A DNA stretch of 64,000 nucleotides from Prosthecobacter algae (GCF_039542385.1 NZ_BAABIA010000002.1:744001-808000), one strand, 5' to 3'; counted from the stretch's first letter, positions 23,566-55,786 are shown. Notes: a model not told the origin generated them from the letters alone. A program made the numbers and translations.

Positions 23566-23639
<74 letters not shown>

Positions 23640-38142: not shown

Positions 38143-41100
38143 TTAGTGAGAGGCAGCGGCGTCTAGCTCGATGGCTTTGGCCGCGGCTTTGCGGCCGAGC
38201 AGCCAAAACATCGCAGGCGTGATTGCCATATCGAGGAAGGTTGATGAGATGAGGCCGCCGACAATGACGACAGCCACCGGGTGCAAAATTTCTTTGCCCG
38301 GTTGATCGGCCGCCAATACCAGTGGGATCAGTCCAATACCCGCACTGAGCGCAGTCATGAGCACAGGAACGAGTCGTTCCAAGGTCCCTCGGATAACCAT
38401 CTTTTTGGTAAAGCCTTCCCCCTCATGCTGCATGAGATGCAGGTAATGAGAGATCATCATGATGCCATTGCGGGCGGCGACCCCACCGACTGCAATAAAG
38501 CCGACGAGCGTGGCAATGCTGATGTTGTTCAACTTCAGATAGGTGAAGGCCAATCCGCCCATGAGCGCGAGCGGTATGTTCACCAGAACCTGAAGGGCCA
38601 GGGACGCACTACGGAAGTAACCGAATAGCATCAAAAAGACGGCCACAAAGACAACCGAGGAGAAAACAACGATACGTTGTGTGGCCTCCTCCTGCGCCTG
38701 GAACTCACCTTCAAAGGTGATGAAGTAGCCTTCTGGCAGCTTGACCTTTTCAGCCACCTCCTTCTTCAATCGCACTACGAGGTTCGAGACATCGCGCACA
38801 CTCGGCTTGATGCCTAAAGCAAAACGACGCTGGCTATTTTCCCGGAAGATAACGTTAGGCCCTTTGGCTTCTCGCACATCAGCCACAAGCGACAGGGGAA
38901 TCCGCTGCCCTTCACCCGTTTCGACTGGAAGTTCGGCAATCTTTTCCGGCGAATCACGCCACTCGATGGGAAGGCGCATGACGAGATTCACGGCGCGTTG
39001 ACCGTCACGCAGCTCAGCAACCTCCTTGCCGCCAATGAGAGCAGACAGTTGTTCGTTAAGCTTTCCTGGTGCGATGCCATAAGCCTGAGCTCTGTCACGA
39101 TCGGCTTCGATTCTCAGCTGAGGAATGTAGGATGTCTGATCAAGCTTAGTATCCTCAAAACCGGGAATGCTCTTTGAGACGGTTTGAATCTCAATGCCGA
39201 TTTGACGGAGTTTTTCGAGGTCAGGGCCAAAAACTTTCACAGCCACAGGTGCGGAGACACCGCTTAGCATGTGACCGATGCGGTCCGCAAGCGGGCCACT
39301 GACCACAGCAAAGACGCCAGGGACGGTTTTGATCTTTTTTGTGATGTCATCCAGGATCGCTTTTCGGCCGCGACCTTCGCCCTTGGCCGCGCCCTCTGCT
39401 TCACGGAAATCGACATCGAACTCGGCTGTAGAGACCGGCACCACATGGTCCCCACGTTCAGCACGACCCAGACGACGACCGACCTTCCGCACTTCTGGCA
39501 CGGATAGGATTTGCTGCTCGATCACGTCCGAGATTTTGTTCATCTCATCCAGCGACGTGCCAGGAGCTGTCGTGGCCGCAACAAGAGCGGTCTCTTCCTG
39601 GAATTTAGGCAGGAAGTCCTTATTCATCTTCGGATACAAAGAGAACGCACCCACAAGCAAAACCATGGCAATGGCGAGGACAATCACCGGTTGGCTCAGA
39701 GCGAAACGCAACAGGGTTCGCTCCAACAGCCACTTCAGATTTCGGGTGATGAAACCGTCCTTGTGCTCGTGACCTTCTTTGGGATTCAGCAGAAACGAGC
39801 ACAGCACCGGAATGGCGGTTAGTGAAACGATGAAAGAAGCGATCATTGAAATGATCGTGGCGATGGCAATAGGAGCGAATAGCTTGCCCTCCACGCCGTT
39901 CAAGCCAAGCAAAGGCAGGAAGACGAGGATGATGAGCACCGTCGCGTAAAGGATCGAATTTCGAACTTCGCCGGAGGCTTTGGCGATCACTTTCAGACGC
40001 GGGTGAGGTGTTGGCAGAGCGGCGTTCTCGCGCAACCGGCGGAACACGTTTTCCACATCCACAATCGCGTCATCCACAACCATGCCGATAGCCACGGCTA
40101 GTCCGCCTAGGGTCATTGAATTGACGCTGATGCCGAACCATTGGAACACCAGAAGCGTGATTCCAAACGATAGCGGCATGGCCATTAGGGTGATGAAGGT
40201 GGTGCGGAAATTTAGCAGGAATAGGAACAACACAACCGTCACCATGATCGCTCCATCGCGAATCGCCTCACTAAGGTTGCCAATGGCATGATCGATGAAG
40301 TCCTTCTGCTGAAAGAGCAAGGTCGTCTCCATTCCTTTCGGATAGGTCGATTGAAGCTCATCTAGGGCCATTTTGATCTCTTCAGTCAGCTTGCGGGTGT
40401 CAAACCCTGGAGATTTGGTGATTGACATAATGACCCCATAGGTCGGCGATTTTTCTGGAGACTGACTTACAGTTGCATCGCCACGCATCGGCTCTATCCC
40501 CCACGCTACATTGGCTACGTCCCCGATGGAAATCGGTCGGTCATTGATCTTCTTGATGATCGTGCGCGAAATGTCATTCAGCTGGACCGTCATCGCAAGA
40601 TTCCGCACCATGATCTCCGTAGGCCCGGAATTCAAAAAGCCTCCGGTAGTAGTGTTCGCAGCTTCAGTCGCGGATTGTTCCAGCTCATCAAAACTGACAT
40701 TGTTAGCCTGCATCTTGAATGGGTCGGGCTGGATCTCGATCTGCTTGACACCGCCTCCCATGTTGAGGATTTCGGCAATCCCTGAGATACTTTGAAGTCG
40801 CCGTTTAATCGTCCAGTCAGCCAGAGAACGCACCTCGCTAGGCGGGACGTATCCCGGCTCGCCTTCTTTGATAGTCGAGCGTACGCCGACGAGTAGGATT
40901 TCACCCATCAATGAAGCCACGGGCGTCATGAAAGGCTGAACGTTTTCAGGCAACTGTTCACGCACGCCTTGGAGGCGTTCCTGAACAAGCATACGTGCCT
41001 TATAGATGTCCGTATCCCAACCAAACTCGGCATAAACCAGAGAGAGGGCAACATCCGAATTAGAACGCAAGCGTGTCAGTCCAGCAACTCCCATTAGAGC

Positions 41101-41313
41101 GCTTTCCAAAGGTTGTGTGACACGCATCTCCACTTCTTCTGGCGCAAGGCCTGGTGCTTCGGTGAGGATGATGACAGTGGGCTTGGTCAAATCCGGTAAA
41201 ACTTCAACCGGCAGTTTTGAACCCGTGCGCCACCCCATGACCATAAGGACGACAGACAGACCGATGATGACCGCCCGATTGGAGAGCGACCAATGAATCA
41301 TTTTGTTCAACAT
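38143..41313 (-). CDS. HME-RND efflux pump, CzcA/CusA type
   Basis: 1,056 residues, full length for the family. Inner-membrane proton-driven exporter. N-terminal MIHWSLSNRAVIIGLSVV with KLPVEVLPDLTKPTV, 12 helices, two large periplasmic loops, and GMVVDDAIVDVENVFRRLRE in helix 4 with the proton-relay acidic residues. It joins the adaptor (2 bp gap) and the outer-membrane factor to span the envelope. Divalent (Zn, Co, Cd) or monovalent (Cu, Ag) specificity cannot be settled from these motifs. Confidence 0.92.
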   Translation of the reverse strand: MLNKMIHWSLSNRAVIIGLSVVLMVMGWRTGSKLPVEVLPDLTKPTVIILTEAPGLAPEEVEMRVTQPLESALMGVAGLTRLRSNSDVALSLVYAEFGWDTDIYKARMLVQERLQGVREQLPENVQPFMTPVASLMGEILLVGVRSTIKEGEPGYVPPSEVRSLADWTIKRRLQSISGIAEILNMGGGVKQIEIQPDPFKMQANNVSFDELEQSATEAANTTTGGFLNSGPTEIMVRNLAMTVQLNDISRTIIKKINDRPISIGDVANVAWGIEPMRGDATVSQSPEKSPTYGVIMSITKSPGFDTRKLTEEIKMALDELQSTYPKGMETTLLFQQKDFIDHAIGNLSEAIRDGAIMVTVVLFLFLLNFRTTFITLMAMPLSFGITLLVFQWFGISVNSMTLGGLAVAIGMVVDDAIVDVENVFRRLRENAALPTPHPRLKVIAKASGEVRNSILYATVLIILVFLPLLGLNGVEGKLFAPIAIATIISMIASFIVSLTAIPVLCSFLLNPKEGHEHKDGFITRNLKWLLERTLLRFALSQPVIVLAIAMVLLVGAFSLYPKMNKDFLPKFQEETALVAATTAPGTSLDEMNKISDVIEQQILSVPEVRKVGRRLGRAERGDHVVPVSTAEFDVDFREAEGAAKGEGRGRKAILDDITKKIKTVPGVFAVVSGPLADRIGHMLSGVSAPVAVKVFGPDLEKLRQIGIEIQTVSKSIPGFEDTKLDQTSYIPQLRIEADRDRAQAYGIAPGKLNEQLSALIGGKEVAELRDGQRAVNLVMRLPIEWRDSPEKIAELPVETGEGQRIPLSLVADVREAKGPNVIFRENSQRRFALGIKPSVRDVSNLVVRLKKEVAEKVKLPEGYFITFEGEFQAQEEATQRIVVFSSVVFVAVFLMLFGYFRSASLALQVLVNIPLALMGGLAFTYLKLNNISIATLVGFIAVGGVAARNGIMMISHYLHLMQHEGEGFTKKMVIRGTLERLVPVLMTALSAGIGLIPLVLAADQPGKEILHPVAVVIVGGLISSTFLDMAITPAMFWLLGRKAAAKAIELDAAASH

Positions 41314-41315
41314 GG

Positions 41316-42497
41316 CTAGTGAACCTCCTTCTTGTTAGACTTCACCGCGGTTTCTTCCTCTTCGGCAGAACCGGGGCCACTCTTTTTGGCGAAGATGGAA
41401 ATCAGAAGCAGAACCAGCAGCACGATGGATGCATACATCCACAGGGGACTGGCTCCGCCCTCGTCATGTCCGTGATTGTCACCAGCGCCAGCATTCTTGG
41501 CTGCCAATTCAGCCTTTTTCTCGGGCGTCAGTTCCCCCCCATCCGCAGCGTGCTCATGCCCGTGAGCTGCATCTAGAGCCTCCTTGAGAGACACACTGCT
41601 GGCTCCGGCAAAGGATAGAGAATATGCGCCGCGTGTCACGACCTCATCCGCAGGAAGGAGACCCTGGGTGATCTCTACAAAGCGGTCATTCATCTCACCG
41701 ACTTGCACCTGAGTTTTGACGAAGGCATTTGCAAGATCAAAGTCCTTCACATAGACAAAGCGATTGCTGGCCTCACCTTGTAAGGCGGCACGTGGGACGC
41801 TGACTACCTCACTGCGCTTACTCAGGACGATGGAAAACTCCGCACGCATGTCAGCACGCAACAGTCCGCCCGGATTGGTCAGGCGGAAGATGGCATCAAT
41901 CGTGCCGCTGGCCTTATCTGCGCTCGTGCCAAAGCGCAGCAGTTCGCCATCGAATTTCTCATTTGGCAAGGAGGCGACCTTTATATGCGCAACCGTACCT
42001 TCTTTCATGCGCCCAGCCTGGTGCTCTGGCACACGTGCTACAGCAAATACCTCGCTTAGATCAGTGATCTCAAGAAGTGAAGACTCAGGCTCCAAAGGAT
42101 CTCCCAATCGTTTTTCCACACGTGTGACCAAACCGGCTAGGGGTGCCTTCAAAGCGACAACCGGGGGTGGATCACCGGGCTGACGGCTTTCGATCTTGGC
42201 GACTTCATCGTCTTTCTTGACTATGTCCCCAGGTGCAACTTTCAACTCCACCACACGCCCTGAGATGCGACTGCTGACAGCAGCAATTTTAGCGGGAATG
42301 GCTTCAATGCGACCTAGTGAAAAAATGGTCTGCTCGAAGTCGGTTTCTTCTACTTCGACGGTTTCAATCCGAAGATTTTTCACCCCAGTTTCATCCAGCA
42401 CGACGGTGTTTGCGGTGCGCTTGGGATCTGCTGCGGAATAGGCGAGGCCAGAGACCGCCAAAAAGGAAAATAGGAATACTGACAAAGATGGTTTCAT
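41316..42497 (-). CDS. RND membrane-fusion protein (CzcB/CusB-like) with His-rich tail
   Basis: 393 residues. Signal peptide to SAAD; barrel-sandwich hybrid with SRISGRVVELKVAPGDIVKK, hairpin-free lipoyl halves (ALKAPLAGLVTRVEKRLGDP), beta barrel, membrane-proximal domain. Unusual: a His-rich segment (AHGHEHAADGG and DNHGHDEGG, ~310-345) then a C-terminal membrane helix (~350-370), which most family members lack. It connects the pump with the outer-membrane channel. Confidence 0.9.
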   Translation of the reverse strand: MKPSLSVFLFSFLAVSGLAYSAADPKRTANTVVLDETGVKNLRIETVEVEETDFEQTIFSLGRIEAIPAKIAAVSSRISGRVVELKVAPGDIVKKDDEVAKIESRQPGDPPPVVALKAPLAGLVTRVEKRLGDPLEPESSLLEITDLSEVFAVARVPEHQAGRMKEGTVAHIKVASLPNEKFDGELLRFGTSADKASGTIDAIFRLTNPGGLLRADMRAEFSIVLSKRSEVVSVPRAALQGEASNRFVYVKDFDLANAFVKTQVQVGEMNDRFVEITQGLLPADEVVTRGAYSLSFAGASSVSLKEALDAAHGHEHAADGGELTPEKKAELAAKNAGAGDNHGHDEGGASPLWMYASIVLLVLLLISIFAKKSGPGSAEEEETAVKSNKKEVH

Positions 42498-42526
42498 AAA
42501 TAAGAAAATGTGAAGTGACTGACCGA

Positions 42527-43768
42527 CTATTTGCCGGATGTTGCTGAAGCTGCGGGAGCATGCTTGCCTACCGCAGCTTCATACCGGATGCGTGCGAGGT
42601 GGAAGTCTCGGACTGAGTCCAAAGCGGCAGCTTCAAGTTGAAGACGTTGCTCACGGGCGCGAAGGATGGTGAGCAAGTCCGCCTGTCCGCTTTCATAGGC
42701 CTTTTCGAGTTTAGCGGTTTGCTCTATGACCATTGGAAGCAACCTGTCGCGGGTCTCCTTGGCCAGATCTGCATTTGCCACCATTTCCTTCCGTGCGGTA
42801 TCCGCCTCGCTAACGATCATTTGACCCAGCGCTTCACTTTCTAAACGGGCACGCTCTGCACTGGCTGTCTTTTCTGCGATCTCTCCCTGATTGCGATTCC
42901 AGAATGGCAATGGTAGAGAGATGCGAAAACCAACAAATCCGGTTCTCTCAGTCTGTCTGGAACTGACGTCCTGCTGTTCACGCGCTGCGAAAAAGCCTGC
43001 ACTGATGTCCTGATACTTGCGCGCTTTTGCAAGAGCTGTGTCAGTCTGTGCAGCAGCGATCCTCGTTTGGGCAAGCTGGTAGTCTGCCCGCTGCGTCCAG
43101 CCCGTGACGTAGCCAGGAATCGTGATGGCAAGAACGTCTCCAGATATCGTGAGGGAATCTGAGGGGGACAGCCCTAACATGGGTTTGAGGGTGCCTAGCA
43201 GACTCACACTTTCGTTTTGTAACCGCCGTGCCTCGACCAGCAACCGTTGGGCATCTACCTGAGCCTGAGCAGCATCCAAGAGCGAAAGCTCACCTGCATT
43301 AGCTCGGCTTTTGACGAACTCAGACAGCTTTGTGGCAAGCTCCGTTTGCTTCTTTCGCAGCTCTCGCTGCTGGTTCAAAGAGATCAATTGTACGACTAGG
43401 GTCTGTGCCTCAGCGATGAGCTTGCGTTCGACATCGCGCACCTCCAGTTCGGCGGCTCCGACTAGCTGGGTCGTGAGCCTTTTCTCCAAGCTCAGCCTGC
43501 GGGTGATGGGGAAGGATTGATCAATGGAAAAAGTTGTGGATCTTGGGCTGACACGACTTTCATTTTGAAACTCAACGCCCATGGAAGGATTTGAGAGTCG
43601 GCCAGCGCCTAGCCGCCGTCCACGAGCCTCCTCCACGGCCATTCGGGCGGCTTTGAGTGATGGGTGATGGCCCCGAACACGCGGGGCAACATCGTTAAAA
43701 GAGACAGTTAACGCCGATGCATTGCTGGCGTATGAGCACAGTATTAGAAGAGCTAAAGAATATTTCAT
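42527..43768 (-). CDS. Outer-membrane efflux protein (CzcC/TolC type)
   Basis: 413 residues from MKYSLALLILCS; the start at 43801 is rejected. Signal peptide ends near NASA-LT. The two OEP repeats are seen as long helices with SNPSMGVEFQNESRV, FSIDQSFPITRRLSLEKR and SLPLPFWNRNQGEIAEKTAS, typical for CzcC. It forms the trimeric exit duct of the pump. First gene of the CzcCBA-like set. Confidence 0.9.
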   Translation of the reverse strand: MKYSLALLILCSYASNASALTVSFNDVAPRVRGHHPSLKAARMAVEEARGRRLGAGRLSNPSMGVEFQNESRVSPRSTTFSIDQSFPITRRLSLEKRLTTQLVGAAELEVRDVERKLIAEAQTLVVQLISLNQQRELRKKQTELATKLSEFVKSRANAGELSLLDAAQAQVDAQRLLVEARRLQNESVSLLGTLKPMLGLSPSDSLTISGDVLAITIPGYVTGWTQRADYQLAQTRIAAAQTDTALAKARKYQDISAGFFAAREQQDVSSRQTERTGFVGFRISLPLPFWNRNQGEIAEKTASAERARLESEALGQMIVSEADTARKEMVANADLAKETRDRLLPMVIEQTAKLEKAYESGQADLLTILRAREQRLQLEAAALDSVRDFHLARIRYEAAVGKHAPAASATSGK

Positions 43769-43881
43769 TGCTGGAAAGTTTGAGGGCCAGGGCATGGACA
43801 TCCCATGCCGAATGGCGGTTAAGCGATATAAGCCCGGGTCATCAATCGTGGATGACAGGCATTAAATAGGCTCTCAAACAA

Positions 43882-44397: not shown

Positions 44398-44655
44398 TCA
44401 TCCAGAAATTAAATTTGAACATTTTAGATGGTGGTCGCAACCCGTAAGTTCAGTGGGGCAGCCAGGCTGGGATTTCAGCGCGGCGTCATAGACAGCAATG
44501 CTGATGGTACGGTTCTTCTCAACCAAGAATTCGGCGTGCTTATCGCCGAGTTCAAGGAGAAGGCCCTTGCGGGGATCTGCTTTGACTTTTGCATCAGCAA
44601 AAACCGCAGTGGTTGAAAGGGCGGCGATGAGGAGGATATTTAGCAGTGTTTTTAT
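44398..44655 (-). pseudogene. Truncated copy of the 37594-38064 protein
   Basis: Frame reads IKTLLNILLIAALSTTAVFA, then GLLLELGDKHAEFLVEKNRT ISIAVYDAALK, matching the periplasmic protein at 37594-38064, but the Cys-rich end is lost (stop after CDHHLKCSNLISG). There is no ATG: the first codon is ATA, overlapping the RND stop as ATAA where an ATGA coupling would be expected. So either a G-to-A mutation removed the start or a rare AUA start is used. It belongs to the decayed second pump cluster. Confidence 0.6.
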
Positions 44656-46640
44656 AGGGCGTTGATTCTGGGTTTGGTTTTTCGTTCGATCCAGTCGTAG
44701 AGCACAGGGACGACGAGCAGGGTGAGGAAAGTCGAGGTGAGGATGCCACCAATGACGACGGTGGCGATGGGCCGTTGCACTTCGGCTCCGGCTCCGGTGG
44801 CGAGCGCCATGGGCAGGAAACCGAGGCTGGCGACAAGGGCGGTTATGAGTTTGGGCCGCAGACGGGTGAGGGTTCCTTCGACCACGGCCTCGCGCAGCTC
44901 GCGACCTTCACCACGCAATTGGTTAATGAAGCTGATGAGCATGATGCCATTCAGAACGGCGATGCCGCTGAGTGCAATGAATCCCACCGCTGCGCTGATG
45001 GTGAAAGGCATTGCTCGGAGGTGCAGGGCGAAGATACCACCAGTGACGGCGAGAGGCACACACATGAAGATAAGCGTGGCCTGCCTCAATGAACCAAAGC
45101 TCAGGAAAATGAGAACATAGATCAAGGCGAGCGCGAGAGGCACGACAATCAGCAGCCGTGCTTTGGCCTTTTGCAGGTTCTTAAACTGGCCGCCAAACTC
45201 GAAGTAATAGCCATCGGGGAATGTGACCGTCTCGCGAATGAAGTTTGTGGCCTCCTCCACAAAACCCTCGGTATCGCGCCCTCTCACGCTGATCAGGATG
45301 CTGACACGGCGCTGTGTATCTTCACGGGCGATCTGAACAGGTTGGGGCACCAGCACGATCTTGGCAACCGGGCCGAGCGCCAGCATGCCGCCATCCTCGG
45401 TACGCAAAGCGAGGCGTTTCATGCCTTCGAGATCTGTTCGGCGGTCTTCAGCCAGACGGACGACGATGGAGCTACGGCGATTTCCTTCAATGAACGTACC
45501 GACCTCTTTTCCGGCGAGTGCGGTTTCCACAAGGCGGTTCAATTCGTCCGCATGGACGTTGAACTTGCACATGGCTTTGCGATCCGGCTGGATCTCAATC
45601 ATGGGGTTTTTGCCAATGCTGTCGAACTCCGTCTCGCCTCCGCCACAAATGCTGGCAATGGCAGTGCGGACTTCGCCGGCGAGACGTTCGAGTTCATCGT
45701 AACAGTCTCCAAAGACTTTGCATACAGGGTCGGCGCGGGCTCCTGCCATGATCTCATTGAAGCGCATCTGGATAGGCTGGGTAACTAGGATGTTTTGGCC
45801 GGGCACCTGATCGAGCAATGCCTTTCGCATGAGTTCACCGAGGCGTTCTTTGCTGATGATTGTGCCATTCTCTTTCCGCCACTGGTCACGCGGATTGAGC
45901 ATGAGGTAGGTATCGGCGACGTTCGGGTTCATCGGGTCCGTCGCGATCTCAGCCGTGCCGATACGGGAGAAGATTTCTTTAACTTCTGGGAATTCACGGC
46001 GAATGACGGCCTCGCTCTGTTTCTACAAATCAAGCGAAGAGGAAAGCCCGGCACTGCTGCTGCGGATAAGCTGAAAGGCGAAGTCTCCCTCATCAAGTTG
46101 CGGAATGAACTCGGAACCAAGCCGTGAGAACACCCAGAGCGAGGAACCGAACAGGACGAGCATAGGCAGCACGACAAGCAGGCGGAAGCGAAGGCCAAAG
46201 TTTAGCAACGGTGTGTAAAGCCGCTTGGTGAAAGTGACGAGCCAGTTGTCTTTTTCCTGAATCTTTCCGCCGAGCAAATACGAACACAGCACCGGCATCA
46301 AGGTCACCGCGAGCACAAGCGAACCACCGAGAGCTAACATGACAACGAGCGCCATGGGCTTGAACATTTCCCTTCAATGCCTTGCAGTGCGAGGATGGGC
46401 ACATAAACGATCGTGATGATCAGCACACCGAAGAACATTGGATTGGCAACCTTCTTGGCGGACTTGAGCACTTCTTCAGTGCGCTCGCTGACGGTGAGCC
46501 TGCGACCAAGCGCGTGCTGCCGCTCGCCTAGATGGTGGACGATGTTTTCGACCATCACCACAGCGCCATCAATGATCAGGCCAAAGTCGATGGCCCCGAG
46601 GCTCATCAAATTCCCGCTGATGGCACCAGACAACACATCG
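44652..46640 (-). pseudogene. Second HME-RND pump gene, truncated and disrupted
   Basis: Collinear CusA/CzcA sequence in three pieces: LMSLGAIDFGLIIDGAVVMV (46636 on) breaks at ALQGIEGK, where one lost A shifts the frame near 46369; the next piece MFKPMALVVMLALGGS runs to SSSLDL followed by an in-frame TAG at 46023-46025 (a Gln codon in homologs); the last 426 residues (44652-45932) are intact to the C-terminus. The first ~370 residues are missing, cut at about 46635. Not functional as a pump. Confidence 0.85.
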
Positions 46641-47187: not shown

Positions 47188-47739
47188 TTATTTAAAATTT
47201 AGCGCCCATATATCAACCTGCGCTAGGGATTCACTTAAAGAACCAGAATTATAGATAATCACGTCAGCATTAGGACGAATAAACGAAATTAATTCAATTT
47301 CGGTGACATCAGCGTCGTATTCTTCACACTGTTCTTTAAGCCACCCACGGCTGTCAAAGAGTCGCTGGTGTCTAATGATATTATCAACATCGACATAGGC
47401 CAACTTTAGATATTTGTCCCCCACGCGATCAAGCAAAAGATCAAGAATCAGCTTGTGGCGTAGACCGTCAAGAACACCGATACTATTGGAATCTGCGCCC
47501 AACGACTCAAAGACCAAATCGCAAAAGTGTTCTGGTTCATTTTCTACCATTTTTTGACCTATAGTCTGAAGAACTCGTTTATCCTCGGTAGACATACCAA
47601 GTCTTGCAGCTTCAAAACGAACAACGTTCCCGAAGCTCGTCCACTTAAGGCCCTGCGACAAGGCGAACGGCTTGGAAATACTAGTTTTACCTGACCCAGT
47701 GTGACCAGCAAAAACGACCAAATTATTTTTTGACTTCAT
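47188..47739 (-). CDS. P-loop nucleotide kinase-like protein
   Basis: 183 residues. Walker A GHTGSGKTS (12-20) at the N-terminus, then a fold like dephospho-CoA/adenylate/thymidylate kinases: FGNVVRFEAARLGMS, VLDGLRHKLILDLLL, YVDVDNIIRHQRLFDSRGWL (lid-like), and a C-terminal IRPNADVIIYNSGSLSE. It would phosphorylate a small molecule, most likely a nucleotide. Last gene of the seven-gene operon, 12 bp after the ASCH gene. Substrate unknown. Confidence 0.7.
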   Translation of the reverse strand: MKSKNNLVVFAGHTGSGKTSISKPFALSQGLKWTSFGNVVRFEAARLGMSTEDKRVLQTIGQKMVENEPEHFCDLVFESLGADSNSIGVLDGLRHKLILDLLLDRVGDKYLKLAYVDVDNIIRHQRLFDSRGWLKEQCEEYDADVTEIELISFIRPNADVIIYNSGSLSESLAQVDIWALNFK

Positions 47740-47751
47740 GGCTTTGTTCCA

Positions 47752-48234
47752 TCATTTCAATATTACCCATCCCCTTCGATCTGATTTCTTGAATGGAATA
47801 TCTTCGAAAGATCGGAATGATGTGATCCATATAAGCGAACAATACGACGCACTCAGCCGCTCATCCCAAAAATCAGAGTTCGAAGGACAGATTCCCCTGC
47901 CAAACTGCTCCCTGATTTGATCTAATGAACCCGGCAATAAATGATAAAACCAAACTCGATCGACAACACACACACCGGCTATTCCTGCGCCAGATCTTTT
48001 CAAAAGAATGATATCCCCCTTTTCTATGCATTCAAAAGGAGCAATGCGATTCTTTGAAAACCTGGTCTCAATAGACTTTTTCCCCTCTGAAATAAATGTA
48101 AAATAGGGTTCAACAAAAACTGCCAGGTGGATTTTAATGAGTTCATCAACCGAGTCCAGAATATCCGCCCACTGCTTATCATCTGCAAGCGCAGCCTTTA
48201 GTTTGTTAAGAGCTGAATTCCGGCCTTCAATCAT
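47752..48234 (-). CDS. ASCH-domain protein (PUA-like)
   Basis: 160 residues. After a helical N-terminus, residues ~35-158 match the ASCH pattern: LAVFVEPYFTFISEGKKSIE TR, then GDIILLKRSGAGIAGVCVVD, ending in a beta strand. ASCH domains bind or modify RNA or nucleotides, and some read modified bases. It overlaps the methyltransferase gene by 8 bp. Confidence 0.65.
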   Translation of the reverse strand: MIEGRNSALNKLKAALADDKQWADILDSVDELIKIHLAVFVEPYFTFISEGKKSIETRFSKNRIAPFECIEKGDIILLKRSGAGIAGVCVVDRVWFYHLLPGSLDQIREQFGRGICPSNSDFWDERLSASYCSLIWITSFRSFEDIPFKKSDRRGWVILK

Positions 48235-49489
48235 ACATTTCCTTCAAATAGGTTGTCCGATCATTGATTTCGCTTTGTAGAACTGAATTCAATTCACGAG
48301 CGTTTCTTTCACCGCCAGCGTTGGTTGATATGTTTATTCCGCCATCACGATTCTGGCCCGCCAACAACATTTCTGCTAACAAATATGGGTCGCTGCATTC
48401 GAAAAAACGATTTCCTGAAGTCACTAAATTAGCCCTGGCCCGCCCTACAAAGTTTGTACTAACAGACGGCAGAATAGCCTCTCGCCAAACAGGAGAAAGA
48501 AACGCGCCCCCTGAACATCCTTGCTTACCGTCTTTTTTACGTCCAGAGTTCTTAACTGAAAACTTTATACCTTGGATAATGAATTCATTCCACTCAGTAG
48601 TGAATAGTCGAGGCGTATCATCATTATAGGTAAGCCGACAGTCATCGGATACTCGATTTCGGAATATAAGTACTTCGGCGCTCCGCCAGGCGGGAATACG
48701 TGCACTAAACCCTGCGGCTTTGAGGCTAGTGCTTTCAAAAAATGGAGTTTTATAATGTAGTTGAATTTTATTCGATGGATTCAATTCTAAACCGCCTTCC
48801 TTGCACCAATTTAACAGTTCTGCCAACTCTTTACTAGCACTGGATCGAGTGCCTTCTAACGGAAAACTCAATAATATCAGCCCGCCAGGTTTCACTATTG
48901 ATTGAGCCTTAACCATGAAGTGTTTTGTTAGATGGTTATACCAAGGGGGATCTACCACGGCAATATCCACCAGCGGATGCGTAGAGATGGGTTTAGTAAG
49001 ATCACACGCCATGAGGTGGGCGGAATTAATCTGAGATTTTAATAGATCGGCTCGACGATCTAGCAATGACCAGCTCCACGATGGCCTTATTTCGTCACCT
49101 GCCACCACAATGCTGGGGCAACCAAGGCACGCAACGGACGGCTGTTTGAAACCAGCAATCTCCTGAGTTAGAAAATCAAGGATATCGCGAATACTCTCTT
49201 GGGTAAACCTCCATTCATAGTCAAGGGGGTGCTCTAGAGAGTTTGGGAAGGGTTCCGGGAATATCTGCCTAGCAACACTTGCTCCGGCTATTCCCAGGAC
49301 GCCACTCTCAAGATTCAAGCGAGAGAGAGACTGCCAGACATCTAGTGGGTAGTATCCTGGAAGTCTCCTGAGAAAAGATTCCCAATTTTCATGATCCCCA
49401 GTCCAAAAACTTCGAACACATTCATCTAGACGACGGACGAATATTGGATCTGATTCACACAGGACCTGACTATCAAATCGCCACTTCAT
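48227..49489 (-). CDS. SAM-dependent methyltransferase with DPPW motif
   Basis: 420 residues. Helical N-terminal domain (1-115); Rossmann core with VACLGCPSIVVA as motif I region (119-130), VDIAVVDPPWYNHL with DPPW at 180-183 (motif IV), and KPGGLILLSFPLE. DPPW is the catalytic signature of amino-group methylases such as N6-adenine (MT-A70-like) enzymes. The last ~180 residues are unrecognised and may bind the target. It overlaps both neighbours (8 and 17 bp). Nucleic acid or nucleotide is the likely substrate, inferred. Confidence 0.65.
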   Translation of the reverse strand: MKWRFDSQVLCESDPIFVRRLDECVRSFWTGDHENWESFLRRLPGYYPLDVWQSLSRLNLESGVLGIAGASVARQIFPEPFPNSLEHPLDYEWRFTQESIRDILDFLTQEIAGFKQPSVACLGCPSIVVAGDEIRPSWSWSLLDRRADLLKSQINSAHLMACDLTKPISTHPLVDIAVVDPPWYNHLTKHFMVKAQSIVKPGGLILLSFPLEGTRSSASKELAELLNWCKEGGLELNPSNKIQLHYKTPFFESTSLKAAGFSARIPAWRSAEVLIFRNRVSDDCRLTYNDDTPRLFTTEWNEFIIQGIKFSVKNSGRKKDGKQGCSGGAFLSPVWREAILPSVSTNFVGRARANLVTSGNRFFECSDPYLLAEMLLAGQNRDGGINISTNAGGERNARELNSVLQSEINDRTTYLKEMYD

Positions 49490-50480
49490 AAATTGGGAGA
49501 TTTCGTTGATGAAGTGAAAATCGCGATTCGATCTCCAAATTCCAACATTTAATGGCTTCCTGTTGAATTTCCATCGATTTTTGATGGACCGCGTTAATTC
49601 TCATTTCGTCTTGAGCAGGTCGAAAAGCTGACACACAAAGGGGCACGACTCTTAATGGCAGCAGCGGAGAAATTGCCTGTAATCGATCTACGAACTCAGT
49701 CATTTTAGCATCAATTGCTTTATTGTCAGGGGCTGTGAAGGTTGCATATCCATAGACATCTATACCGAGGGAAACAATTCTTTTAAAGATAGAGAATTGT
49801 TGATCGAATAAAGCGGGGGCAGCACGTGTATTAAAAGAAAATGACGACGAATCGAAGCCTTTAAAACAGCCAACTTTAGCGTAATTACGGTAAGATACCA
49901 CTCGGTCAATTTCAGACGTGCTAAGCTTTGTCCAGAAAAAGTCCGTACTCAAATTGTCGTCGGACCAAAGGAATGTTTTTTCTGACAATCCACCTTTTTC
50001 CAAAGCATCCATGGTCCAAGGAATCCATTCAGGCGTAAGGTCGGGTTGTCCTCCCGAAAGGTCTATAATAGCCGGTGGATGCTCGTGCGCCCGATATCTA
50101 TCTACTAATTCATCGGCAGTCAACCAAAGGCCTTTTTGCTCATCCGCTTTGAGCAGATCGAATGGCACATAGCAATACCAGCATCGCCAGTTACATGCAG
50201 CGTTCTGAAAGACTTGAGCTAAGGCAACATCTCCTGAATCTATTCCAAGCTTATGATTGGCGGGATCAATAGGCAAAGAATTTTCAGGCCAACCGAAAGC
50301 AGTCCAACGACGAAAATGCCTGATTCGTCCGACTCCTCCACAATTGGTTGGATCGGTAATATCTGTTTCTTGACTTGTGCCGCTTAACTTTGCCACAAGC
50401 AACTCTTTAGTATCCAGCCGTATTGCCTTGGTCCTTAACTTAGACGAGTACTGTAATGTGTCTATACTGTTAAAATTCAT
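49473..50480 (-). CDS. Radical SAM enzyme
   Basis: 335 residues. The iron-sulfur motif CNWRCWYC (Cys 96, 100, 103) is followed by Y-V; GGQPDLTPE (the GGE-like SAM site) at ~135. A ~90-residue N-terminal domain precedes the barrel, unlike viperin, whose Cys motif is near the start. No SPASM Cys cluster at the C-terminus. It makes a 5'-deoxyadenosyl radical; substrate unknown. Overlaps the DUF4186-like gene by ATGA and the methyltransferase by 17 bp. Confidence 0.85.
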   Translation of the reverse strand: MNFNSIDTLQYSSKLRTKAIRLDTKELLVAKLSGTSQETDITDPTNCGGVGRIRHFRRWTAFGWPENSLPIDPANHKLGIDSGDVALAQVFQNAACNWRCWYCYVPFDLLKADEQKGLWLTADELVDRYRAHEHPPAIIDLSGGQPDLTPEWIPWTMDALEKGGLSEKTFLWSDDNLSTDFFWTKLSTSEIDRVVSYRNYAKVGCFKGFDSSSFSFNTRAAPALFDQQFSIFKRIVSLGIDVYGYATFTAPDNKAIDAKMTEFVDRLQAISPLLPLRVVPLCVSAFRPAQDEMRINAVHQKSMEIQQEAIKCWNLEIESRFSLHQRNLPIYEVAI

Positions 50481-51067
50481 AATGACAAATCCAGTTCAGA
50501 TTGAACCCGGTTTTCTTCATTGAGCAGATCTGGTAATTTAACATTTAGATATGCCCAAATCACCTTTTCAAGGTAATCCAGTTCAGCTTGCAGGAGATCC
50601 CGTTCCTCGGGGATACCATGCCAATAAAAGACACATTTCCTACAACAGGTTGCTGTTGCATGTTGTGCGTAATGAATAGGATCATCGTCTCGCAGCAAGG
50701 GAGTTTGCTGTCCTTCACGAAAGTGATGTCCTAAGCCTATGGATTTTTTAAGCCGCAAACGAACTTTTTTTTCCAGTCGCTGGCGACCTATCATGAGGGG
50801 GCGACGTTTTGATACCCACGATATGTCATTCCTCCAAAAGTATGCGCGTATGTGCTCTTTTTTCAGGCTACTAACCAGTATACTGATGTTGTTAATATCT
50901 CGTTTATGGAGTAAGTCCCACTCAATTGGAGATGCTCCACAATTCGTGCAAATGCTGGGTGAGTGGCGCCTTTCTTTCGGTGGTTTCTTGGGACTGAAGC
51001 AATGTTCGTCTTCAGCACACTTGAAGTCCGTACATTTAATATCCAGCTTTTCTCTTTTTTTAGGCAT
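50477..51067 (-). CDS. DUF4186-like zinc protein
   Basis: 196 residues. The C-terminal half has YAQHATATCCRKC then WHGIP (133-153), very close to the DUF4186 signature; the N-terminal half adds two Cys pairs (C12/C17/C23 and CTNCG at 40-44), so two or more zinc sites. DUF4186 is of unknown function. Longer than stand-alone DUF4186 proteins (~110-120). Second overlap partner of the radical SAM gene, suggesting the two work together. Confidence 0.65.
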   Translation of the reverse strand: MPKKREKLDIKCTDFKCAEDEHCFSPKKPPKERRHSPSICTNCGASPIEWDLLHKRDINNISILVSSLKKEHIRAYFWRNDISWVSKRRPLMIGRQRLEKKVRLRLKKSIGLGHHFREGQQTPLLRDDDPIHYAQHATATCCRKCVFYWHGIPEERDLLQAELDYLEKVIWAYLNVKLPDLLNEENRVQSELDLSL

Positions 51068-51082
51068 AGACGTTGCCTCCCC

Positions 51083-52504
51083 TTATTGTTTTTCTATTGC
51101 ACGAATAAACATATCACGATCAAACTCATTTAGTACGGCAAGATTTACATGAGTGAGCAAACCCTTTCTGACGATCTCATCTGGGGCTACCAGACTTTTT
51201 TGAAGATTCTCGGCCGCTCCCCACCAATTAATCTGTTGATCCGCAAGCCTCCAGGCCATGTGATTGGCAAGTACGCCTACGTCCATTTCGAAAGTATCTG
51301 CAACCTTCTCTATAGCGGCTTTCATCATCTTAACATTACCGCTGGCCGCTTTGACCACGGCTTTCTCGATTCTGCCGCTATCACCATCAAAAAGAACATC
51401 TTCTGCCCATTCATTTGCTACAGTTTCATCATCATCAGTATCCGACTCTTTTTGACCAATGGGTTCAATTTCGATCACCGCTGATGTTTCAGAGACGTGG
51501 TTGTTAACTACGTGTCCTATTTCATGAAGCAAATCAAATAACCATCGAGCAGTTTGGCTAGTGGTTTGTTTGACTACTATTACATGTCTTCCACCTATTT
51601 TCCAAACAGCTCCATGAAATGCACCGCTATAGCAAATAGGAATGACAATAATCCCGCAATTCCAAGTGTAATCCAAAACTGACTGAAGGCTTATTTTGCC
51701 AAAATCTGCTAGTATGGCATCTCTGAAACTCGACCACTCTTGCGGAATAGCGATCATCGGTACGTGTTCACAAGCTTTACACGCAAGCGCAGCGACATAA
51801 TGAGCGTAAACTGTAAATGCATCGACTTTCTCGCTGTCTGCGTTGGTGCGCAATTTATATCGAACCCTTGAGCCAAATACAAATGGAAGCGATGAGTCAG
51901 CATCGAGTAGCCGTCGAATTGGTATACCAAATACTGAGCTAAGTTCTACCAAGGCATTCCAAATGGCCTCGCCCGAACCCAAGCCAGATATTAGCGCAGT
52001 GTAAGAATTAGCTGGAAGTATTCTGGCTAGCATTGCCTTATCAAATCCACAAGCCGCCAAACGATGGAACAATCTCGGCATATCGCTTGCTGATTTCATT
52101 ACAATCAGATCGCTGGCTACCCCAACATTAAGTGCTGTAGCGACAGATTTCAGAGTTGCCAAGCTCGCCGCTTCATAGTTATCTGCCTCCCATCTTTGCA
52201 CTTGTTGCTCTTTCAAACCCAATATTGCGGCCAGTTCTTTTTGAGTCTTGCCTCTGGCGATGCGGGCTTTAATTAGCGATGAAGGAAGATCATCTAGTGA
52301 CGAAACAGAAAATACTGATATATCCCCCCTCACTAAGGCTTCATACTCTGAAATCTGGAGGCTAAGTATATCAATTTCAGATTGATGTGCAGCTCGGTGA
52401 ATCTCTGCGAAGGCATTTTCGCTAGTGCCAATTTCACTTATTCTTTCAACGAACCGATCCAACTGGCTCTTTGATATGCGGTACTGTCTTTCGTTCTTGA
52501 TCAT
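51083..52504 (-). CDS. XRE-HTH / ImmA-IrrE metallopeptidase protein
   Basis: 473 residues. HTH at ~73-130 (RIARGKTQKELAAILGLKE then QQVQRWEADNYEAAS); zinc protease of the ImmA/IrrE type with HEIGH (327-331) and the downstream Glu in ETVANEWAEDVLF (~360-372). An unusual N-terminal ~70-residue segment precedes the HTH. Such proteins repress an operon and cleave partners on stress or infection. Probably represses its own operon through the palindrome at 52963-52982. Overlaps the DUF6932-like gene by ATGA and lies 15 bp before the DUF4186-like gene. Confidence 0.85.
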   Translation of the reverse strand: MIKNERQYRISKSQLDRFVERISEIGTSENAFAEIHRAAHQSEIDILSLQISEYEALVRGDISVFSVSSLDDLPSSLIKARIARGKTQKELAAILGLKEQQVQRWEADNYEAASLATLKSVATALNVGVASDLIVMKSASDMPRLFHRLAACGFDKAMLARILPANSYTALISGLGSGEAIWNALVELSSVFGIPIRRLLDADSSLPFVFGSRVRYKLRTNADSEKVDAFTVYAHYVAALACKACEHVPMIAIPQEWSSFRDAILADFGKISLQSVLDYTWNCGIIVIPICYSGAFHGAVWKIGGRHVIVVKQTTSQTARWLFDLLHEIGHVVNNHVSETSAVIEIEPIGQKESDTDDDETVANEWAEDVLFDGDSGRIEKAVVKAASGNVKMMKAAIEKVADTFEMDVGVLANHMAWRLADQQINWWGAAENLQKSLVAPDEIVRKGLLTHVNLAVLNEFDRDMFIRAIEKQ

Positions 52505-52944
52505 TGGAGTGAAGAAAGTTTGAATGCCACTAGTCCTTTTGGAGCACCGGTATCTTTATTAATTTGAAAAAATTCGAAGAAAGTTCGTGCTGGTCCTTCG
52601 GCTTGAGCTCCACTCGGAAAAAACTCTCCCCCAAATCTTGCTTTTTGAGCTTGCCTGAAATTATTGAAGTCAAAAAACACTGGATCAAGCTTTTCAAGTT
52701 GTACCCCTAATGGGTCCCAGCAGGCGTCAAAATCTTCCGGTAATTCTTTAGTTGTTACGAAACTACCATCCAGATACACAAATCGGCAGCCTGCCAATCG
52801 GAGCAAATACGCACCTTCAATGAAGCCGTCGAAAAGTCGACGTCGTCTTGCTCCGACTGCGAATCGTTTGGCCAACTCGTTAGGGTCAGCTGTCCAGTGC
52901 AGCCCTGGGGGCAACAGTCCGAATTGATCGTGAGGCGGAATCAT
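52501..52944 (-). CDS. DUF6932-like protein (nucleotidyltransferase-like)
   Basis: 147 residues. MIPPHDQFGLLPPGLHWT and CRFVYLDGSFVTTKELPEDFDACWD match DUF6932. The GS...D-x-D arrangement resembles minimal nucleotidyltransferases. DUF6932 genes commonly sit beside an XRE-ImmA/IrrE gene, as here, in pairs thought to be toxin-antitoxin-like or defensive. First gene of the seven-gene operon; the -10 box ends only ~9 nt from its ATG and no Shine-Dalgarno is visible, so it may be translated leaderless. Confidence 0.75.
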   Translation of the reverse strand: MIPPHDQFGLLPPGLHWTADPNELAKRFAVGARRRRLFDGFIEGAYLLRLAGCRFVYLDGSFVTTKELPEDFDACWDPLGVQLEKLDPVFFDFNNFRQAQKARFGGEFFPSGAQAEGPARTFFEFFQINKDTGAPKGLVAFKLSSLQ

Positions 52945-52953
52945 TGGGCGTGC

Positions 52954-52985
52954 TTATAAGCAACACAACAAAAATGTTGTGTCAA
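52954..52985 (-). promoter_or_regulatory. Promoter and palindromic operator of the seven-gene operon
   Basis: On the minus strand TTGACA (52980-52985) is followed after 21 nt (longer than the usual 17) by TATAAG (52954-52959). A perfect 20-bp inverted repeat ACACAACA-AAAA-TGTTGTGT (52963-52982) overlaps the -35 and spacer, 18 bp before the ATG. The likely binder is the XRE protein encoded second in the operon. Confidence 0.65.
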
Positions 52986-53363: not shown

Positions 53364-54863
53364 TCAAATCCCTCGCTTACCTGACTTTCTACTCGACTTC
53401 GGCTTTTGTGATTTCAGGCGTGGCTTAGTCAAGTGTTGGTGATTGTCAGTATTGGTGGCGAGTAATGATCCGAGGCCGACCGTAACGCGTTTCTTTTGGG
53501 CCACATAGTGTTGCGCCGTGATGGCAACGTCGGCATGGCGCAAGAACCGGGAAGCATCCAACAGCCCGTCTTTTGCGGCGATCTGTGAGCCAGCTTCTTT
53601 CCTCAACGTGTGCAGAGGTGTGCGGGCCTTGACGCCGTGTTTGCGCAACCATGTGACGAGGCGTGTGAAGCTTTGATTCGCCCTGTATTTACTCCACGTA
53701 GGTTCCGCTGCCTCGGTCGTCTGTACAGGTCGCGGCACTTTGAATTTCCGTTTGGGGGGATCGGCAGCCATGACATAAATGGCGCTTGGGTCGCTCGCTC
53801 TAAGCTTCTTTAAGACCTCCGTCACTTCAGCATCTATCGGCACTTCACCCAAACTAGTTTCGGCCTTCGGCGCAAAATCGCTTTGAGATTCTACTCGGAT
53901 CAAACCTGCGTCGAGGTCCACTGATTCCCAACGAAGCTTGTCTGCTTCGTTCCGCCGCAGCCCAGCAAATAGGCCTAGCAAAAATGCCTTGAATGCTTCG
54001 GGGTCTTCAATTGCCAGCTCGTTGCGTGCAACAGAGAGGAGAGATTCGACATTCATGGTTGAGACGTAGCGCATTGACTGGCGTGGGAAGAGGTCCACTC
54101 CGTCAAAGGGGAGTGGGGAAGGCAGCACAACACGATTGGTGACCAGACGCAAAAGACGTTTTGCAAAAAGGCCCTTCCCCATGCGGATGAGCGAATTTGC
54201 ACTGTTGCGAGCAGAGCGCGCTTTGGTTTCATCTCTGCCTGCCCGGCTGCTGACGTAGCGGAGCTTCCAAGCCTCAATCCGATCAGGAGTGAGCTTTGCC
54301 AGCGCCACGGCATCCACGTTGGTGAGCCACGTGCTACGACTGTCGCCGCAGCGAGCAAAGCGGCCAGCTGTGGCTTCAATCCCTTCCACGTCGGCTACGA
54401 TGCGTCTGAATGTGGCGACATAGCTCCGCAACGTCGTTACTCTCACATTTGACAACTCCGTCACCGCTGACAACAGATCGCCCACTGTCGCCCCCTTAAC
54501 TGGTGACGCCGACGCTGGCTTGAATTTTAACAGTGCTTCCTCCCAGCCGTTGCTACGAAGCATTTGATAAATGTTCAGTGCCTTTTTGGCGGCGGCTTCC
54601 TTGATGGGGGAACCAAGCGGGAATCGATGCCGCTGTCCCTGATGGGCTATCTGAACGCTGTAATCAGGAGAATCCACCTTCCTCACTCGCTCCTGCCAAT
54701 GCCGCACATCCCCCTTGGGATAGCTGTGCATTTTCTGTGCAGTTTTTGAGATCTTACCTGTGCTGTTTTGATCCGAACTGATGTCCTTCTTTGGTCGTTT
54801 ATCCCTTGTGGATGCTTGTTTCTTCGTGCTCACCAGATAACATAAGGGATCAGGAGCAAACAT
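53364..54863 (-). CDS. Tyrosine recombinase (island integrase)
   Basis: 499 residues. Catalytic set: Arg303 (GLFAGLRRNEADKL), Lys333, His418 and Arg421 (LHTLRKEAGS), His443 (RHADVA) and Tyr453 (AITAQHYV). Residues ~45-110 form an arm-binding-like domain; ~120-250 the core-binding domain. The first 44 residues are basic and could be skipped if translation starts at Met45 (MHSYPKGDVRHW). It lies 12 bp from the right attachment site, as expected for integrases that use a tRNA gene. Confidence 0.93.
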   Translation of the reverse strand: MFAPDPLCYLVSTKKQASTRDKRPKKDISSDQNSTGKISKTAQKMHSYPKGDVRHWQERVRKVDSPDYSVQIAHQGQRHRFPLGSPIKEAAAKKALNIYQMLRSNGWEEALLKFKPASASPVKGATVGDLLSAVTELSNVRVTTLRSYVATFRRIVADVEGIEATAGRFARCGDSRSTWLTNVDAVALAKLTPDRIEAWKLRYVSSRAGRDETKARSARNSANSLIRMGKGLFAKRLLRLVTNRVVLPSPLPFDGVDLFPRQSMRYVSTMNVESLLSVARNELAIEDPEAFKAFLLGLFAGLRRNEADKLRWESVDLDAGLIRVESQSDFAPKAETSLGEVPIDAEVTEVLKKLRASDPSAIYVMAADPPKRKFKVPRPVQTTEAAEPTWSKYRANQSFTRLVTWLRKHGVKARTPLHTLRKEAGSQIAAKDGLLDASRFLRHADVAITAQHYVAQKKRVTVGLGSLLATNTDNHQHLTKPRLKSQKPKSSRKSGKRGI

Positions 54864-54874
54864 TCAATAAAACA

Positions 54875-54919
54875 ATTTGTAATCATCAGGTCGTCGGTTC
54901 AAATCCGACTCTCGGCTCC
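54875..54919. repeat. Right attachment site (att)
   Basis: Exact 45-bp copy of 23595-23639. It is the tRNA-Thr 3' end displaced by integration; chromosomal DNA follows. Just right of it, CAGGTCATCGGTTCCAAACC (54924-54943) looks like a worn second copy of the T-arm part. Confidence 0.92.
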
Positions 54920-55533: not shown

Positions 55534-55631
55534 GGGCGCTGAGAGAGGTGGGTCGAGTCTTTCCAGATTCGCCTAAAGGCAATACACCAGCAGAGCTTGC
55601 GGGACATTGGGGTGCGCTCGAAAGCGGCGTC

Positions 55632-55653
55632 GCCGAAGCCTCACGGCTCCGGC
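55632..55653. repeat. Strong hairpin after dps
   Basis: GCCGAAGCC-TCAC-GGCTCCGGC, 8 of 9 pairs, in a GC-rich stretch (55605-55690) without a gene. Terminator-like or a dispersed palindrome; no T run follows. Confidence 0.45.
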
Positions 55654-55786
55654 TTCTCTGCCGCCGCACTCCGGGACGCTTCGCAACATCGGGGCTTAGT
55701 GGCCCAACAAAATCACCGACTTGTAAAAAACTTTGTCCGGTTTTCCGGGCTGGTGCGGTATATCCGTCCCTGCCTGATTTCCGATC

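Follow-up and report, generated by a model that had tools for sequence, protein, structure and literature searches.

A mobile, self-regulated seven-gene operon with a probable role in defence

Results

In a stretch of 64,000 nucleotides of the Prosthecobacter algae genome (GCF_039542385.1, NZ_BAABIA010000002.1:744001-808000; the window hereafter) we describe a real, mobile and self-regulated seven-gene system whose function, as judged from its genes and their surroundings, is probably defensive. The explanation that we prefer is that of a mobile, self-regulated and induced anti-phage operon, of which a five-protein arm makes or handles a modified nucleotide, and we give this reading a probability of about 0.5. 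The nucleotide chemistry of the arm is what we infer.

The operon spans positions 47188-52944 as seven open reading frames on the minus strand, the overlaps (4, 4, 17 and 8 bp) and gaps (15 and 12 bp) being all as claimed in an earlier note on this DNA, and the domain names given there to the seven products were borne out by Pfam or profile matches, some of which are weak in the window proteins. It starts with a DUF6932 protein of 147 aa (52501..52944; PF22014, 2.8e-29), the gene of which overlaps by 4 bp that of a 473-aa XRE-ImmA/IrrE fusion (51083..52504; HTH_3, 2.5e-10, and Peptidase_M78, 0.0017), followed after a 15-bp gap by a DUF4186 protein of the YneG family (50477..51067; PF13811, 4.3e-19). 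The next gene, for a radical SAM (rSAM) enzyme (49473..50480; Radical_SAM, 3.4e-6), overlaps the DUF4186 gene by 4 bp and shares 17 bp with the gene of a SAM-dependent methyltransferase (48227..49489; PF10237, 0.0018), which in turn overlaps by 8 bp that of an ASCH-domain protein (47752..48234; ASCH, 0.0054). A P-loop NMP-kinase-like protein with an adenylate-kinase-like profile (47188..47739) comes last, after a 12-bp gap. On the same strand a palindrome with perfect 7-bp arms, ACACAAC-N6-GTTGTGT (52963..52982), precedes the DUF6932 gene, and no RNA families were found within the operon locus.

Relatives of the rSAM enzyme were observed in 88 species when 84,980 species were scanned with the rSAM alignment, a figure that is a lower bound with two peptides as search seeds, and in seven plasmid records in addition. 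The co-occurrence beyond this strain that the earlier note had put forward as a check was found, as the set recurs in distant genomes and strain-specificity is ruled out. In most untruncated loci among the 87 examined, the order DUF6932-XRE-DUF4186-rSAM-methyltransferase-ASCH-kinase and the orientation are kept, exactly this seven-gene order being present in 32 of the 87. The remaining loci show contig ends, extra XRE or kinase matches nearby, absence of DUF6932 (notably in several Bacteroidota), an undetected methylase, in which case rSAM is followed directly by ASCH or the kinase, and, for a few, a rearranged order. Among the 64 loci with enough flank, the kinase is present in 63, ASCH in 61, XRE and DUF4186 in 59 each, the methyltransferase in 57 and DUF6932 in 49. 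In two Rhizobium loci (L018:11336-12598 and L079:8894-10168) a DUF763-annotated gene overlaps the end of the kinase gene and is a possible eighth member, and in a Nostoc locus (L021) a dGTPase gene adjoins the cassette. Furthermore, the gene distance matrices correlate in 21 of 21 pairs (r 0.57-0.87, to which shared species history contributes), a comparison of the window with its close relative G405 indicates purifying selection on each of the seven genes (dN/dS 0.02-0.27), and catalytic motifs are conserved in all the operon's proteins across relatives. The recurrence of gene order together with the operator in dozens of distant genomes is far beyond chance and agrees with the single regulated unit claimed earlier; from these comparisons it is established that the seven genes travel as one unit.

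Regarding regulation, the earlier note had proposed a promoter with a palindromic operator. The palindrome is real and its arms are perfect, but a sigma-70 promoter is not clear: a consensus scan at the palindrome found no sigma-70 site, TTGACA overlaps the first arm, and TTATAA, the closest hexamer of the -10 type, lies at a distance of 20 bp. The operator lies so near the DUF6932 start (window 52944-52985) that the transcript may be almost leaderless, with no canonical -10 at normal spacing. The exact palindrome is found in a single copy in the 6.1-Mb genome of the window, i.e. that of the operon. Across the 61 DUF6932-headed loci, the 20-bp operator with at most 2 mismatches is present upstream of DUF6932 in 49, and in 58 with a wider window allowing for over-extended ORF starts, compared to shuffled upstream regions in which the best match never fell below 5 mismatches. 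In the three DUF6932-headed loci that lack the operator, one of Paenibacillus (L095) and two of Methylobacterium (L104 and L105), the recognition helix of XRE differs from that of the remaining ones, which is K[EP]QQ[IVL]Q[RK][YW]E or close to it. Where DUF6932 is missing, the helix is another, of the TPQTISRIE type, and the operator is absent. Because operator and recognition helix covary across loci, XRE is the likely binder of ACACAAC-N6-GTTGTGT. The operator is conserved across phyla, and the proposal of the earlier note that XRE-ImmA and DUF6932 form the switch is supported. The HExxH of the peptidase half is conserved (H327, E328 and H331 in 97-100% of members). As for DUF6932, a GS-x8-D-x-D motif invariant in 62 members suggests a nucleotidyltransferase-like protein, which is the candidate partner or antitoxin of the switch.

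The rSAM tree comprises about 14 phylum-level groups, intermingled and patchy in their distribution, one member being a Nitrososphaerota MAG contig that may be a contaminant. Copies of the operon are found on plasmids, mostly conjugative, on islands and on chromosomes, and in Tolypothrix PCC 7712 (L017) its genes lie inside the 18.4-kb insertion by which that strain differs from PCC 7601 (PMC9679502). In the window, the operon's neighbour is the integrase of an island 31.3 kb long that has a 44-bp tRNA-Thr att repeat at either end, and the claim that it lies beside an island integrase was confirmed by identification of both elements: a tyrosine integrase (53364..54863, minus strand; Phage_integrase, 2e-9) and, on the plus strand, attL (23596..23639), which is the 3' end of the tRNA-Thr(TGT) gene at 23566-23639, and attR (54876..54919), its exact copy. 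Translations of the same island, judged by eye, show at 38143-43801 a set of metal efflux genes of the CusABC type that is intact, and at 44652-46636 another RND gene, broken into three frames. An 80-bp dispersed REP-like repeat can be seen at window 55607-55697; it has several copies in the window's genome, recurs in many others of the genus, and is found on both strands.

Beside the same att core, G405 carries an integrase and cassette 95.5% identical to those of the window over 8.3 kb. Because dS between the two is 0.39 for the integrase and only 0.04-0.12 for the cassette genes, the exchange of the cassette seems to be more recent than that of the integrase. A sister genome (G200, C5:398000-437000, L119-L120) has at this tRNA-Thr att a related integrase, of 69% DNA identity, with BREX as its cargo (BrxA, BrxB, BrxC, PglX, PglZ and BrxL), while G188 displays neither such integrase nor the cassette at that tRNA. 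The att is a hot spot at which defence cargo integrates, and genome comparison establishes the mobility of the operon. With respect to a phage origin, neither rSAM nor DUF6932 had a match among 50,697 phage records, and rSAM had none in IMG/VR; operator matches in 15 viral contigs were attributed to chance, with no DUF6932 adjoining.

The flanks of the cassette contain 116 PADLOC families in 144 proteins compared to 26 in 122 control proteins, a rough enrichment given that families and not genes are compared and that the control proteins come from stretches drawn at random from the phylum of the window. Among the families of the flanks are CBASS-type phospholipase, Hhe, AbiE, AbiD and type IIG R-M. 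The nearness to defence genes and integrases expected from the earlier note is hence observed, and the enrichment supports a defence role, short of proof. Dispersal and defence-island company are compatible with another cargo role too, and the operon could, carried by mobile elements and with no action on phages, serve fitness in DNA damage or in metabolism (through repair, nucleotide salvage or a small natural product). In favour of such a cargo are the ability of XRE/ImmA-type switches, e.g. DdrO/IrrE, to answer DNA damage and the metal-efflux genes of the island. We nevertheless consider it quite improbable, as the operon has no transporter or precursor gene, and the PADLOC-rich flanks, BREX at the same att and a head common to PD-lambda-2-type loci together lend support to a role in defence.

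Turning to the five-protein arm, the kinase has a full-length profile match to the AdkA-like structures 3lw7/3h0k (1.5e-8). The profile alignment displays the Walker A and two NMP-binding Arg motifs of the NMP-kinase fold, SFGxxxR and DGxRH aligning with SxGDLLR and DGYPR of adenylate kinase, and G17, K18, R94 and R126 are invariant among relatives; it is predicted to be a nucleotide kinase, in agreement with the earlier note. In the rSAM enzyme the cysteines of the CxxxCxxC cluster are invariant in 87 relatives and C47 and C205 are also conserved. Its structure is predicted with confidence (pLDDT 95.8), and searches gave no close family match and no close fold match, the top PDB entries being SuiB, SkfB and lipoyl synthase. 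It is an orphan enzyme. The viperin analogy drawn earlier fails as homology: the enzyme reaches 19.1 bits against a cut-off of 180 for pVip (NCBIfam NF038283), viperins appear from rank 28 in the PDB fold search with a TM of about 0.3-0.5, and 48 of 65 rSAM relatives match viperin only weakly (best E 2e-5). Membership of QueE or the 7-deazaguanine (Dpd) pathway was likewise rejected, with 15.4 bits for the rSAM against a cut-off of 260.1 and no other Dpd/Que gene in the operon.

The DUF4186 protein exhibits an N-terminal Cys/His (zinc-ribbon-like) motif and a QHAxAxCCRxCxxxWH core, both found in 79 members, and its model (pLDDT 89.9) has no fold relative in the PDB. The only viral structure clearly matching this model is a Pithovirus LCPAC001 protein (UniProt A0A481Z275, E 4.4e-6). 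No PDB sequence relatives were found for rSAM, DUF4186 or DUF6932. The methyltransferase carries a DPPWY motif, which suggests an N6-adenine-methyltransferase-like enzyme, and a conserved C-terminal VSRRD..R..VWTSGN region; PF10237 matches 16 of 33 members (best 1.9e-8), the window protein weakly. Similarly, the ASCH domain is found in 18 of 28 members (best 3.9e-6), the match of the window protein being weak, and the motif of this protein is GxKxxESRFS.

The DPPWY methylase of N6A type, the ASCH domain and the Cys/His ribbon of DUF4186 could also belong to a nucleic-acid modification system, in which rSAM, methylase and DUF4186 would modify tRNA, rRNA or DNA, either of the host, for protection from nucleases of the invader or from drugs, or of the invader, with kinase and ASCH serving them. 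Phage pathways of DNA hypermodification do combine genes for rSAM, kinases and transferases. However, the operon has no nuclease partner, its kinase resembles small-molecule NMP kinases and no DNA-modification pathway family scored above cut-off among the proteins, which makes this reading unlikely.

The DUF6932/XRE head is found in front of other genes as well. In G265 and in Alphaproteobacterial plasmids it precedes a peptidase matching PD-lambda-2_B (1e-77 to 1e-93), and these loci also carry a beta protein, for which the match to PD-lambda-2_C, as tested in L141, was 1e-41; PD-lambda-2_C is annotated or matched in L140, L141, L143, L144 and L149. The operator at these heads has the ACAC form in G265 and is TTACAAC-N6-GTTGTAA in the plasmids. 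The N-terminal 137 aa of the window XRE-ImmA protein show 43% identity to the PD-lambda-2_B-type protein of L140, and no relation between the peptidase halves of these two proteins was detectable by BLASTP. On an Acinetobacter plasmid (L146:4959-6679) TnsE of a Tn7-like element is followed immediately by a DUF6932 and PD-lambda-2_B-type pair, this pair being a short distance upstream of an NDM-1 gene, and the cyanobacterial plasmids L145, L147 and L148 have a reduced form of the head, i.e. DUF6932 and a short XRE without peptidase.

PD-lambda-2 itself is a proven anti-phage system of abortive type, active against lambda-vir (PMC9519451; Vassallo et al. 2022), in which component B, an XRE-peptidase, is toxic by itself and neutralised by A, and in which defence requires C (PMC9519451). 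The operon might be a toxin-antitoxin system of the same kind, with DUF6932 as the A-like antitoxin, the XRE-peptidase as toxic B and the five proteins in place of C, where they would support or trigger abortive infection and not make an antiviral molecule. The behaviour of the three PD-lambda-2 components and the same head order with PD-lambda-2_B and PD-lambda-2_C homologues in other loci are in favour of this, but we regard it as doubtful in view of a peptidase half with no detectable relation to PD-lambda-2_B and of an A component that is HigB-like where the operon has DUF6932; moreover, five conserved proteins exceed what an accessory would need. By analogy with PD-lambda-2, toxicity may reside in the XRE-peptidase of the operon.

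None of the window proteins matched PD-lambda-2_B up to an E of 1, no PD-lambda-2_C (beta family) gene was found in the operon, and the seven proteins gave no match to core genes of BREX (BrxC, PglX, PglZ), DISARM (DrmABC) or R-M (REase). The claim that the combination matches no named defence system held for BREX, DISARM, R-M, viperin and PD-lambda-2. No paper describing the seven-gene combination was found in a search with preprints, subscription papers and DefenseFinder models outside its range, and the literature searched gave nothing on defence for DUF4186 and nothing on DUF6932. As far as these libraries and papers go, the head is of a known candidate type and the enzyme arm matches nothing named.

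Discussion

According to the anti-phage reading that we prefer, XRE with DUF6932 would repress its own promoter in the quiet state. Infection or a DNA-damage signal would trigger the peptidase half, repression would end, and the five downstream proteins would be made and act on nucleotides. A precedent for induction by way of a repressor and an IrrE-type peptidase is DdrO/IrrE of Deinococcus. The adenylate-kinase-like protein would phosphorylate a nucleoside monophosphate, perhaps a modified one, rSAM and the N6A-type methylase would introduce or elaborate the modification, and the product or its nucleic acid would be bound by ASCH and by DUF4186 with its Cys/His ribbon, the outcome being harm to DNA or RNA synthesis of the invader or a mark on nucleic acid. 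Once freed from its partner the XRE-peptidase may, like that of PD-lambda-2, be toxic, and the defence may then include shutting down the host. Only tentatively, and with the odds against it, do we go further and propose an inducible chemical immunity in which a methylated nucleotide modified by rSAM and charged by the NMP kinase would serve as an antiviral chain terminator or signal, under a swappable head shared with PD-lambda-2-type systems. Against the preferred explanation weigh the orphan state of the rSAM enzyme, to which no substrate could be assigned, some relatives that have no methylase, the weak ASCH and methylase matches in the window proteins, and the related candidate PDC-M63AB, for which the one test found showed no protection (PMC12409345).

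If the defence reading is true, the operon would be an undescribed immune system with a chemistry arm in about 14 phyla, and would offer the first functional frame for YneG/DUF4186 proteins, which are present even in E. coli. The covariation of operator and helix is a testable handle on how the XRE-peptidase switch is triggered. Furthermore, since the same switch drives quite different effectors, operator searches could reveal further systems.

Compared to known systems, the operon displays partial likenesses. E. coli YneG, a protein of unknown function, has the DUF4186 core too, and the operon protein differs from it by the extra N-terminal Cys/His ribbon and by its operon context. As in pVip, a radical SAM enzyme and a nucleotide-kinase-like protein are found in one operon, and viperins are among the distant matches; unlike pVip, there are five further genes. 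The DUF6932 protein matches PDC-M63A of PADLOC (1.7e-8), whereas the XRE protein, like the other window proteins, has no match to PDC-M63B and five extra genes are present. DdrO/IrrE and CapH/CapP combine, as does the operon's switch, an XRE-type repressor with an ImmA/IrrE-type peptidase, but here both are on one chain and DUF6932 is the partner. PD-lambda-2 resembles the operon in that a fused XRE-peptidase comes after a small A gene, and its DUF6932-headed relatives share with the operon the operator core ACAAC-N6-GTTGT and the N-terminal 137 aa of the XRE protein, within which the recognition helix lies; where PD-lambda-2 has its beta protein, the operon has the five-protein arm.
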